Below are positions 8,437 to 36,435 of a stretch of 51,222 nucleotides of DNA, piece by piece (the stretch's first letter is position 1; each line of letters starts with the position of its first letter). The stretch covers positions 1-51,222 of the forward strand of contig CAJXEJ010000012.1 of the NCBI GenBank assembly GCA_913052475.1, in the 5' to 3' direction. Origin of the DNA: an uncultured Dehalococcoidia bacterium (GTDB taxonomy: Bacteria; Chloroflexota; Dehalococcoidia; Lucifugimonadales; Lucifugimonadaceae). A model generated the notes under the pieces. It did not search any database. It saw only the letters and a list, made by a program, of their open reading frames with translations, and was not told the DNA's origin. The position numbers and the translations under genes were made by a program.

Positions 8437-9852
8437 ATGACAACAGCCGCTTCGACCGACCTTTCATTGATGGCCCACTTACTTCGACGTGCCGGATTTG
8501 GATCCGACCGCGCTGAGCTTGAGCGATACACTGCTCGAAGTTATGAAGATGTGGTGGACGATCTACTGAATCCCGAACGATTCGCAGAGCCAGAGGATGA
8601 AGTGCTCACCCGGTTCTACCCGCACCTGCACGCTGCGATCGATAATCCAGCGGTTTGGAATGGCCGTTGGTTCTACAGGATGATCAACACTGATCGACCG
8701 CTCGAAGAGAAGATGACACTGTTCTGGCACGGTGTGTTTGCTACTGGTTGGACAAAGAGCGAGCACACCCCGACTATCGTCGATCATATCCAGATGCTTC
8801 GAGAGAACTGCATGGAAAACTTCCGGACTCTGCTCCTAGGTATCTCGCAGGATCCGGCAATGATTTTCTGGCTCGACAATAACGAAAATCACGGCGATGC
8901 GATCAATGAGAACTACGGTCGTGAAATCCTTGAACTGTTTTCGATGGGTATCGGCAGCTACACGGAAGACGACATCAAGAGCGCAGCACGAGCGTTCACC
9001 GGTTGGACGTATAAGCAACCGGTTCCGCTGTATCCGTACGGTCAGCGATCAGTCGACTACCTCTTCAGAGAGGATGACCACGATTTCGGAGAGAAAACGT
9101 TCCTAGGTCACACTGGCAACCTTGATGGTGGGGACATTGTCGACATCATTGCCAGGCAGGAGGCAACCGCTCGCTTCATCGGTCGCCACCTCTACAACTT
9201 CTTCGTCGCCGACGAGGCGCAGGTGCCGGCATGGAGCATCGAACCACCAGCCGATCCCGGTGCCATCGACGATCTGGTGAAGGCGTGGATGGATTCAAAT
9301 GCTGACATTAAGTCAGTTTTGCGGGTGATGTTCAATTCCGACTGGTTCAAGGCAGCTCGCTTCAAGCACGTGAAGTCACCGACCGAGTTTGTGGCGGGCG
9401 TGCTGAAACTTTCTGGAGAGTATGCCGCGCCAGCGCCGAATCTGCACAGCCTCGAAGGCACGATCGTAGCCATGGGGCAGAAATTAATGGATCCGCCCAG
9501 CGTTGAAGGTTGGCACACCGGTAAAGAGTGGATCGATGGCGGTACGCTCACCGAGCGAGTCAACTACGCCATCGACACACTGAATGATCCGACCAAACCC
9601 GGAGTGAAGGCGATCATTGAACGCATCAAAGCTGGAGTTGGCCAGACGACTCCCGAGCAACTCGTCGATTGCGTGCTCGAACTCGTTGGCCCACTCGAAG
9701 TTGCATCAGAAACCCGTGATGCATTGGTTGCACATGCGGAATCTGAAGGCGTGCTGGACTGGGGCTCTGAGACCGCAGATGAGACCAGTTCTGCCCGGGT
9801 TGTTCAGATGCTCACGCTTGTTGTTTCGGCTCGAGAATTTCAGTTCGCTTGA
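8437..9852 (+). CDS. DUF1800 family protein
   Basis: The product is 471 residues with ATG after GAGGATCGAC. It matches DUF1800 from start to end: the N-terminal LLRRAGFG motif, EKMTLFWHGVFATG, ENYGREILELFSMG, ARAFTGWTY, and a C-terminal PPSVEGWHTGKEWI. The family is widespread in Planctomycetes, Chloroflexota and Proteobacteria, nearly always beside DUF1501, and its function is not established. Here it lies 60 bases upstream of DUF1501 in the same direction. Unlike many relatives it shows no signal peptide. Confidence 0.93.
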   Translation: MTTAASTDLSLMAHLLRRAGFGSDRAELERYTARSYEDVVDDLLNPERFAEPEDEVLTRFYPHLHAAIDNPAVWNGRWFYRMINTDRPLEEKMTLFWHGVFATGWTKSEHTPTIVDHIQMLRENCMENFRTLLLGISQDPAMIFWLDNNENHGDAINENYGREILELFSMGIGSYTEDDIKSAARAFTGWTYKQPVPLYPYGQRSVDYLFREDDHDFGEKTFLGHTGNLDGGDIVDIIARQEATARFIGRHLYNFFVADEAQVPAWSIEPPADPGAIDDLVKAWMDSNADIKSVLRVMFNSDWFKAARFKHVKSPTEFVAGVLKLSGEYAAPAPNLHSLEGTIVAMGQKLMDPPSVEGWHTGKEWIDGGTLTERVNYAIDTLNDPTKPGVKAIIERIKAGVGQTTPEQLVDCVLELVGPLEVASETRDALVAHAESEGVLDWGSETADETSSARVVQMLTLVVSAREFQFA

Positions 9853-34147: not shown

Positions 34148-36109
34148 CTATTCCGCCGTTGGAATAATCGGCAGAACAATCCTCGATGCGTGGTTCGCTC
34201 CGGTGTGGATTGTGTTGTCAGCTTTGATCATCTTCGCGTGACGCCCGACCGGTTCGCCCGTGTTCGGATTCACGTCGAAGCGCGGAAAATTCGAACTCGA
34301 GACGTCGAGTCGAATTCGATGGCCCTTCTTGAATACGTTCGAAATCGGCCAGAGCTGTATCGAAATCTCGACAGGTTCACCCGGGCTCATCATTTTCGGT
34401 TTCGTCCATGAATCCCGATACCTGGCACGCAAAATCGTGTCCGTCAGGTTGAGATGGTAACCCTCGGGGTAGTCATCACTTGCCGGGTATACGTCGATCA
34501 ACTTCACCGTGAAATCGGTGTCGAATGCAGTCGACGAAACCCACAGCTTGATCATCACGTCACCCGTTACCTCGGTATCGTCTTCGAGCCGATCGGTTTC
34601 GAACGTAAGAACATCGTCACGATCTTTCAGCAGCTGGTACGGCTTCTCTGCACCGACCCATTCGGGACCCTCTTTCTGGTGAAAGCCACCAGCGGCGATG
34701 ACTTCGCTCAGATTGATTCGGGCTAGCGTCCATTGATCGAGAAATTCGGGCACATCGTCAAGCGCCGGTCCGCCGTCTTCGGGGGCAGTGATTTTGAACA
34801 TTCCAACTAGCTGACCACCGATGGTGGGAACCGGGTTTTCAGGATCGTACGTATAGGTAATGGAGCTCTCGTCTTCCATAGTCTCGAACGAATCAAGTGA
34901 TCCATCATCGTGGAGGTAGAGCGTCTGGAGCTGCGCCCGTTCGAGGGGCCATTCCGACTCGTTACGCCAGTACCCACCGTGATCCAGATGCCCCTCGGGT
35001 GTCTTCGTACCATCGCCTGTTCCCAGAATATAAATGCGCACCGGCGAGTCGTTGTCGGGCGCGGCGTAACCCTTCAGGTGCTGATCGAAAAAAGCAACGC
35101 GTTCGAGGTTGTATATTTCGCTGCCCCAGACACTGTCTCGTCCGGTGTCGACATCTCCATGCCACTGACCAGTGGCTCTTGTTCCGCCGTGTCACCAGGC
35201 TCCAAGAACAAGTCGACTCGGCGATTTATTTAGGCGATTCATTTCGACGAAGTAGTTTGCAGTCGCGCCGACGAAATTGTCGTACCAACCACAGGAAACA
35301 GTGATCGGTACATCTGCGTGCTGACCGTCCGCAATGAACGGCTCCTGGTTTGCCGCTTCCTGCGCCCACCACTCGTCATACTCGCCACGATAGTAGTAGT
35401 CGAACACTGTCTTCTCAAGATCTGGTGCCACTCGCAGCGCAGTCTCGCCGGGTTTTAAGGGGAATCTCTGGATCCAGTCCCCCATATCTCGCATTGCATC
35501 GAGGATGATTTTCGCTTTTTCGAGATCGTCGCCGATTTCGTGGCTGTCAAGGGCGTGGAGATGTGCCGCTCCGAACATCTGGAGGGACATCGCACCGCCT
35601 TCACGTGCCTCGTGTCGGTAGATGTCGGTGGGGCCAGCTTCTACCCACATGGCTGCCAAGTGTGGCGGCTTTCGTAGTGCTAGCTGTGTTTGTGTGATGG
35701 CGCGATGAGATGATCCGAGCGTTCCGACCTTGCCCGAGCACCAGTCTTGCTCAGCAAGCCACTCAACGGTGTCGTATCCGTCATCCCCTTCCCACGGATT
35801 AATCGTGTGGTAGTAGTGTCCGTCGCCTTCGGATCGGAAGCGTGATCGCAAATCTTGCACGACGAAAGCGTAGCCACGGCGGACGTAGTAGGGGATGACA
35901 TCGTCCCACTCAGGAGCGGTCTTGTCGTAAGACGTTCGCACGAGAAGTGCTGGAACTTTTTCGCTTGCGTCGACCACACGACCATCGCCGTGACATGGTA
36001 AAAAAATATCGGTGGCGAGTCGTATGCCGTCGCGCATCGGCATCATCACGTCACGAATGGCATGGACGCCGTAAAGAGGTTGGGAGGAAGTTTGTGCAGG
36101 AGATGTCAT
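34148..36109 (-). pseudogene. CocE/NonD-type hydrolase interrupted by one in-frame TGA (nonsense or recoded)
   Basis: The frame spans 653 sense codons with one TGA at codon 306 (35192-35194). The upstream part has MPMRDGIRLATDIFLP, GTLGSSHRA with the expected nucleophile Ser134, and CGWYDNF with the expected acid Asp277. The TGA stands in LGAW-stop-HGG, where family members read P/A-W-(T/S/C-like)-H-G and the His is the catalytic base. Downstream, in the same frame and without further damage, come the beta-rich C-terminal domain pieces (FFDQHLKGY, VMIKLWVSS, GHRIRLDVSSSNFPRF). Family enzymes are X-Pro dipeptidases, cocaine-esterase-like or acyl hydrolases. If the TGA stops translation the product lacks its catalytic His. 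A perfect hairpin follows the TGA. Confidence 0.85.
35161..35176 (-). promoter_or_regulatory. Hairpin 15 nt after the in-frame TGA (SECIS-like candidate)
   Basis: On the minus strand GCCACTGGTCAGTGGC forms a perfect six-pair stem with a GGTC loop. It starts 15 bases after the TGA, so the loop lies 21 bases downstream. Bacterial SECIS elements are hairpins at about this distance with a G early in the loop; the E. coli fdhF element has a GGUC loop. Chance is possible because the sequence also encodes protein. Confidence 0.4.
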
Positions 36110-36156: not shown

Positions 36157-36435
36157 TCAGATGAGTTGGTCAATCTGCATATCAGCGATTGGCTGGTAAT
36201 GGAAGTTACTTTTACCTTTTTTCCGTTCAGCTCGATTGAAGAAATCAAGGATGATGAACAGCACGATCATGGCGATCACAAACCCGATACCAAATATCTT
36301 CAATCGGGAGCTGGGAGACTCACCCATTCTGTGACCCACGCCTTCAGCTGAGAAGCCGACTTTAGCGTTGCGGATTCTTTCGCGACGGGATGCATACGGG
36401 TGGTAGTGATCCGGTCGGCGCTTCGGAGTTGTCAT
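36157..36435 (-). CDS. Small single-pass membrane protein, unknown family
   Basis: The product is 92 residues. A basic N-terminal half (RRPDHYHPYASRRERIRNAK) is followed by a membrane segment IFGIGFVIAMIVLFIILDFF (about 47-66) and a short charged tail. A GAGGTGA ribosome site stands before the ATG, which supports expression. It was not recognised as any named family. The gene lies 47 bases upstream of the broken CocE-type gene on the same strand. Confidence 0.6.
   Translation of the reverse strand: MTTPKRRPDHYHPYASRRERIRNAKVGFSAEGVGHRMGESPSSRLKIFGIGFVIAMIVLFIILDFFNRAERKKGKSNFHYQPIADMQIDQLI

Follow-up and report, generated by a model that had tools for sequence, protein, structure and literature searches.

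In E. coli fdhF, selenocysteine (Sec) stands in a Sec-His-Gly sequence and the SECIS hairpin has a GGUC loop. For formate dehydrogenase FdhA, Table 1 of PMC13188914 gives the Sec motif UHxP. The sections of this review considered here describe most selenoproteins as thiol-redox proteins and model the SECIS element as a hairpin with a loop of 3–9 nt, a stem of 4–16 bp and a G in the first two loop positions, located 16–37 nt from the UGA and with a minimum free energy (MFE) of -7.5 or lower. A Sec family of trypsin-like serine proteases (MucD) is reported from the GOS survey in the part of PMC2398784 covered here.

The gene described here, from an uncultured SAR202 bacterium, very probably encodes a full-length CocE/NonD serine hydrolase with Sec at position 306, inserted under the direction of a hairpin and decoded by SelA, SelB, SelC and SelD. 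As in FdhA-type selenoproteins, there is an in-frame UGA, a hairpin about 20 nt downstream with an early G in its loop, and a Sec machinery. In contrast to FdhA, the protein is unrelated, the putative Sec would adjoin the catalytic His in a serine hydrolase, and there is no UxxC or CxxU motif. With the MucD family, as far as the same part of the GOS survey portrays it, the protein shares the status of a predicted marine selenoprotein among serine hydrolases, but MucD is trypsin-like whereas the SAR202 protein is an alpha/beta-hydrolase.

When the locus was read from its sequence only, no precedent for Sec at such a site could be named. Table 1 of PMC13188914 (2026), with 119 prokaryotic selenoprotein families and subfamilies, includes no PF02129, CocE, S15 or alpha/beta-hydrolase entry. 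The terms hydrolase, CocE, peptidase and esterase are absent from the available portions of PMC13188914 and PMC12013277, and in those of PMC2398784 esterase occurs only once, for a UshA-like protein. Judged by titles and the beginnings of abstracts, no selenoprotein of this kind was found in the open-licence literature searched. Cultivated relatives of the organism exist according to PMC10444878, and the main text of this SAR202 cultivation paper does not contain 'selen'.

Gene and protein family

The window, i.e. the whole stretch of 51,222 nucleotides that was analysed, is contig C12 of the host assembly (2.13 Mb, 86 contigs, 90.6% complete). Its minus strand carries, from 36109 to 34148, one frame of 305 sense codons, a TGA (35192..35194), 347 sense codons and a TAG. 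The sequence-only reading was right about one frame with a single TGA, but its count of 653 sense codons has to be lowered to 652, since 653 is the number of residues with the TGA included. The gene (34148..36109, minus strand) thus codes for a CocE/NonD-family (S15) alpha/beta-hydrolase of 653 residues including the putative Sec306. Its earlier classification as a CocE-type hydrolase was confirmed by profile matches: the half before the TGA matched PF02129 (E 9.4e-48), the half after it PF08530 (E 1.3e-49), and the whole read-through protein TIGR00976 CocE_NonD with 368.7 bits against a cut-off of 66.3. NCBIfam, which includes selenoprotein models, named the protein only CocE/NonD. Among the named relatives compared, Ca. 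Lucifugimonas marina JH1073 (CP046147.1) is the nearest, with 84% identity over the C-terminal part; it belongs to SAR202 within the Dehalococcoidia.

In cocaine esterase, we take Ser117 (nucleophile), Asp259 and His287 to be the catalytic residues and Tyr44 to belong to the oxyanion hole. Chains of this enzyme (1JU3) are the closest solved structures; both domains correspond, and the residue equivalences, counted by hand along the alignment rows, place Ser134 (35708..35710) at Ser117, Asp277 (35279..35281) at Asp259, His307 (35189..35191) at His287 and Tyr61 (35927..35929) at Tyr44 (all on the minus strand). Hence all three members of the Ser/Asp/His triad of CocE/NonD hydrolases match by alignment, and the Ser134 position holds Ser in all 31 rows among the homologues listed. 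Retention of these four residues suggests that the SAR202 protein remains a serine hydrolase. Cocaine esterase differs at two positions: Ser286 aligns to codon 306, the TGA read here as Sec, and Ala255 is found in place of Cys273 (35291..35293, minus strand).

Codon 306 in related genomes

Codon 306 was read in 39 homologues, and the 28 that form one clade (support 100/99; 55–100% identity) were regarded as orthologues. Throughout these 28, which come from four genera, the codon is either TGA (17) or TGC/TGT for Cys (11), which is the Sec/Cys pairing characteristic of bacterial selenoproteins; TAA, TAG, Arg and Trp were not found. The alignment of homologues proposed in the earlier reading thus showed Sec or Cys in the orthologues and never Thr, Ser or Arg. 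TGA is present in 14 of the 19 genomes of the host genus (own genome included) and in all three of genus g9. Cys is found in the remaining five of the host genus, in 4/4 of genus g6 and in 2/7 of genus g12, where G448 and G450 are the only genomes with an orthologue. At the same position the 11 outer homologues, among them an Asn paralogue from the host genome itself, have Asn (4), Ala (4), Ser (2) or Thr (1). Since the TGA form also occurs on the closed isolate chromosome CP046147.1, an assembly error is unlikely.

The reading frame is conserved on both sides of the in-frame UGA, as is typical of selenoproteins, and 27 of the 28 orthologues run to the full end; the exception is the Cys orthologue of G016, which is frameshifted after the site. 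Median dN/dS for the 14 TGA genes of the genus was 0.037 before the TGA and 0.048 after it (58 and 66 usable of 91 pairs, respectively; mean dS about 1.8), so that the relaxed selection past the stop that a pseudogene would show is not observed. Purifying selection acts on both sides of the TGA. The roughly 347 codons after it, called undamaged at first reading, are indeed 347 sense codons up to the TAG with low dN/dS. The frame shift in G016 lies some 50–60 codons past the site, beside an apparent short local duplication, and is either an assembly fault or real.

In a sample of 400 genomes of the phylum, the pattern G-[AP]-W-U-H-G gave 15 matches including the own gene. The 14 others were taken as chance because none keeps the frame open for 50 codons both before and after the TGA; Sec forms elsewhere could escape a search of a phylum sample with this exact motif. 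No relatives of the hydrolase were found in viral_contigs, which was scanned by protein and by the pattern of the SECIS stretch.

The hairpin downstream of the UGA codon

A SECIS-like hairpin, GCCACU-GGUC-AGUGGC (35161..35176, minus strand), follows with its loop 21 nt past the UGA. The element GCCACTGGTCAGTGGC had been pointed out in the sequence-only reading, and the description given there is accurate: a perfect 6-bp stem with a GGTC loop, starting 15 bases past the TGA. A hairpin of the allowed geometry is found 20–21 nt past the UGA in 15 of the 16 TGA genes scanned, the exception being G018, and a wider scan (19–23 nt) yields one in 16 of 17. In G018 the stem has one A-G mismatch, and its 50-nt fold keeps the hairpin. 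Three builds can be distinguished. The first two are (G)CCACU-GGUC-AGUGG(C) and GCCAC-CGGGUC-GUGGC, and the third, in genus g9, forms a stem around a GUC loop with other letters.

The strongest signal comes from synonymous sites, which were compared in 6-codon windows with a correction for the amino acid. Over the hairpin (codons 312–317), the 11 TGA species with the first build show 3 differences where 122.9 were expected, and this ratio of 0.024 is the lowest among 647–648 windows; the lowest non-overlapping window in the same species has a ratio of 0.47. The longest invariant run of bases in the gene, 17 nt, begins at codon 313. For the 11 Cys orthologues, with comparisons made inside four groups, the same codons show 31 differences versus 19.9 expected (1.56, rank 613/647). 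In the three species with the second build the count is 0 versus 7.9 expected, tied with other windows at zero, and in g9 it is 1 versus 4.25 (rank 19/591). Pooling the 14 TGA species of the genus without the amino-acid correction leaves the hairpin region among the low windows, although it no longer ranks lowest, since the two builds are not alike in sequence. The constraint acts on the RNA and accompanies the TGA. Conservation of the hairpin in relatives, which had been proposed as a check, is therefore seen as synonymous sites that are constrained in TGA genes and unconstrained in Cys genes.

Folding the bases after the TGA, the companion check, did not recover the element: the 63-nt fold of the own gene (z = -0.16) prefers another structure in which the hairpin is absent. 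Of 16 TGA genes, 10 have the hairpin in their best 50-nt fold, as read from bracket notation. Synonymous shuffles of the own gene yield an equally good hairpin in 16% of cases. On its own the hairpin is thus unremarkable, and it gains significance only through comparison with relatives. Over the full range of 16–37 nt, an isolated hairpin of -7.5 kcal/mol or better is found in 4/17 TGA and 4/22 non-TGA genes, the latter being G440 and G441 (-10.0), G046 (-7.9) and the Asn paralogue of the host (-10.6 kcal/mol). At 19–23 nt, a placement chosen after the TGA genes had been seen, the Asn paralogue (-10.6) is the only one of 22 non-TGA genes with a hairpin of -3.7 kcal/mol or lower; it is solely within this narrower placement that the TGA genes are set apart. 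By energy alone, the hairpin fails to separate TGA from non-TGA genes.

Within the host genus no covariation of stem pairs was detected; the pairs are either unchanged or broken. RNAalifold, applied to 13 of the 14 TGA sequences of the genus (G009 is identical to G014 in this stretch and was omitted), did not choose the hairpin. For each of the three g9 genes, 0/500 synonymous shuffles gave a hairpin as good; one pair of the g9 stem is altered on both sides, and with three sequences the shuffle controls were not exceeded. Neither energy nor covariation decides for or against a SECIS element.

Selenocysteine machinery

The genes selA, selB, selC and selD, whose presence in the own genome had been named as a check, were all found there. 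Profile searches gave 504 bits for selA and 290.1 bits for selB (cut-off 242.25); the selB match covers profile positions 2–300 of 581 and is partial because the contig ends there. The selD gene (L121 751–1806, G000:C70; 365.8 bits) has an in-frame TGA of its own in the segment TCAGUAGK, presumably the usual Sec site of SelD. A tRNA-Sec with anticodon TCA is present, and a second, weaker tRNA-Sec match in the host genome is a tRNA-Ser.

Among relatives, selA is above cut-off in 53 of 60, including all 18 of the genus. In genus g6, where all four orthologues have Cys, selB is above cut-off in none of the four genomes, and neither selA nor tRNA-Sec was found in the two of these four that were examined. 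Some TGA genomes lack individual genes: G001, G008 and G015 (89–96% complete) have selA and selB and no tRNA-Sec was found; in G442 of g9 (74% complete) no selB is above cut-off. The searches for selA and tRNA-Sec left out G442, G440 and G441. G035 (g9, 71% complete) has selA and selB, with tRNA-Sec not found, and G026 (g9, 86% complete) has selB, with selA and tRNA-Sec not found. We infer that the genes missing from TGA genomes correspond to gaps of incomplete assemblies. For the g9 genomes G026, G035 and G442, a Sec system that has diverged would fit as well as gaps in the assemblies.

Second-rate tRNA-Sec matches of 43–54 bits in G001, G003, G008, G015, G023, G026, G033 and G035 were rejected, as they were tRNA-Ser or tRNA-Leu wherever ARAGORN called a gene (14 of the 16 loci were submitted, with 13 called and one without a gene). 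Cys at position 306 also occurs in genomes with Sec genes, namely in the five genus members (selA present) and in G448 and G450 of g12 (selB present); thus, having the machinery does not commit a genome to Sec at position 306.

Genomic surroundings

The neighbours of the gene in the window encode an EF-G-like GTPase, a D-2-hydroxyacid dehydrogenase, an enolase-superfamily protein, a DUF4395 protein and an RraA-like protein. Neighbours in relatives were judged by sequence resemblance. Of nine loci compared, those of G013, G012, G004 and G010 have a downstream protein that shares the EF-G-like start, and the two g9 loci have different neighbours. No selenium-related genes were seen next to the hydrolase in the window or in the nine loci. 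Upstream of the gene and in the same orientation, G013, G012, G004 and G002, in part G010, and also L046 carry another CocE-like frame. By locus, this frame is recorded in L046 (22–1992, with GPWSH), L114, L115, L116 (part), L120 and L122. At the same upstream place the window has a reading frame of 92 amino acids instead (36157–36435), without a Pfam match.

Elsewhere in the host genome, a decayed CocE paralogue fragment (L003, G000:C63:4209–4562, minus strand) with several stops and a lost frame provides a pseudogene of the same family for contrast. Scanning the window for in-frame TGA codons with at least 80 open codons upstream and 60 downstream gave 17 places including codon 306. At position 9850 on the plus strand a TGA lies between long open stretches of one frame (486 codons upstream, 406 downstream).

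Discussion

Taken together, the occurrence of only Sec or Cys codons in the orthologues, the Sec genes and the constraint on the hairpin support the earlier suggestion that the TGA beside the catalytic His encodes Sec. Those findings that had been specified beforehand as speaking against it were sought, and the opposite was found. The comparative evidence is strong and Sec insertion is very likely. UGA codon 306 would be decoded as Sec by the SelA/SelB/SelC/SelD system of the cell, with insertion directed by the short hairpin 15–31 nt past the codon.

That a nonsense mutation or sequencing error splits the gene and leaves a pseudogene is extremely improbable. In its favour, the standard code treats TGA as a stop, the host genome contains a decayed CocE fragment at another place (G000:C63) and the Cys orthologue of G016 is frameshifted in its assembly. 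However, the TGA is common to 17 genomes from two genera, one of these genomes being a closed isolate chromosome, TAA and TAG are never seen at the site in 28 orthologues, and selection downstream of the TGA is strongly purifying. The true decayed paralogue looks different, with hydrolase sequence gone after about 140 codons and several stops. A recent nonsense mutation, the alternative weighed in the sequence-only reading, is contradicted by the presence of TGA in 14/19 genus genomes and 3/3 of a second genus. A real stop at the UGA, with the PF02129 and PF08530 halves made separately and then assembled, would make use of the fact that the two Pfam domains flank the TGA, and possible downstream starts are available (GTG at 35041; in G026 and G035, an ATG as the fourth codon past the TGA). 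This is very improbable, however, because the frame continues through the site in 11 Cys orthologues (ten in full; in G016 for 68 codons and then frameshifted), the stop would have to be TGA in 17/17, the split would separate Trp305 from His307, and the constraint at synonymous sites falls on the hairpin and accompanies the TGA. Readthrough of the UGA by a near-cognate or suppressor tRNA, inserting Trp or another residue instead of Sec, needs no SECIS, and the energy evidence for a SECIS is weak. Against it, Trp never occurs at the site in the 28 orthologues or the 11 others, the orthologues show Cys, and a Sec system is present in a host whose selD has its own in-frame TGA; there is hardly any chance that it applies. 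Nonsense mutation, split gene and Trp readthrough were thus rejected on TGA/Cys conservation, selection and the open frames of the Cys genes.

With Sec306 as the preferred reading, its role has to be considered. Cys273, four residues ahead of Asp277, is the proposed redox partner. It co-occurs with Sec or Cys at 306: it is present in 26 of 28 orthologues, in all 17 putative Sec proteins and in none of the 11 outer homologues. Sec306, beside the catalytic His, could pair with Cys273 as a reversible selenylsulfide, which would switch or protect the hydrolase or confer thiol-redox activity; we consider such a role possible and somewhat less probable than even. An AlphaFold2 model from five sequences (window and L044–L047) was too poor for a 273–306 distance (pLDDT 33.5, pTM 0.29). 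Alternatively, Sec306 may be real and serve otherwise, for instance if it bound a metal, a thiol or a thioester substrate, or tuned His307; the chances of this appear evenly balanced. The two exceptions, G448 and G450, combine Cys306 with Gly273, so residue 306 can matter without Cys273; the presence of Cys273 in nearly all orthologues and in every protein with the TGA argues the other way.

In the protein tree (39 rows, 651 columns; Sec entered as unknown, Cys kept at the site), Sec is found in g9 and in the crown of the host genus, two clades with Cys lineages between them. At least two Sec/Cys changes are required, which fits two Cys-to-Sec conversions; because the two intervening branches are moderately supported (78/69 and 87/94), a single Sec gain with later losses could also account for the pattern. 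Conversions of this kind have precedent, with 33 events in 17 families given in the part of PMC1794560 considered. Since G448 and G450 are the earliest-branching orthologues, we propose the order Cys306, Cys273, Sec306, the last step perhaps taken twice. A redox-gated hydrolase, in which a selenylsulfide acts as an on/off switch or brings a second oxidoreductase activity, built stepwise on a CocE enzyme by two Cys-to-Sec conversions with separate SECIS hairpins, is a tentative and rather doubtful extension of this proposal.

The protein would be a new selenoprotein family, absent from the catalogue of 119 families. A gene caller with the standard code would end it at residue 305; consequently, relatives may be mis-annotated. 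A serine hydrolase with selenocysteine in its active-site loop prompts the question of what selenium contributes where the main chemistry is not redox. The clade contains close forms with Sec or Cys and outer forms with Ser, Ala, Thr or Asn at this position, and therefore this question is directly testable.
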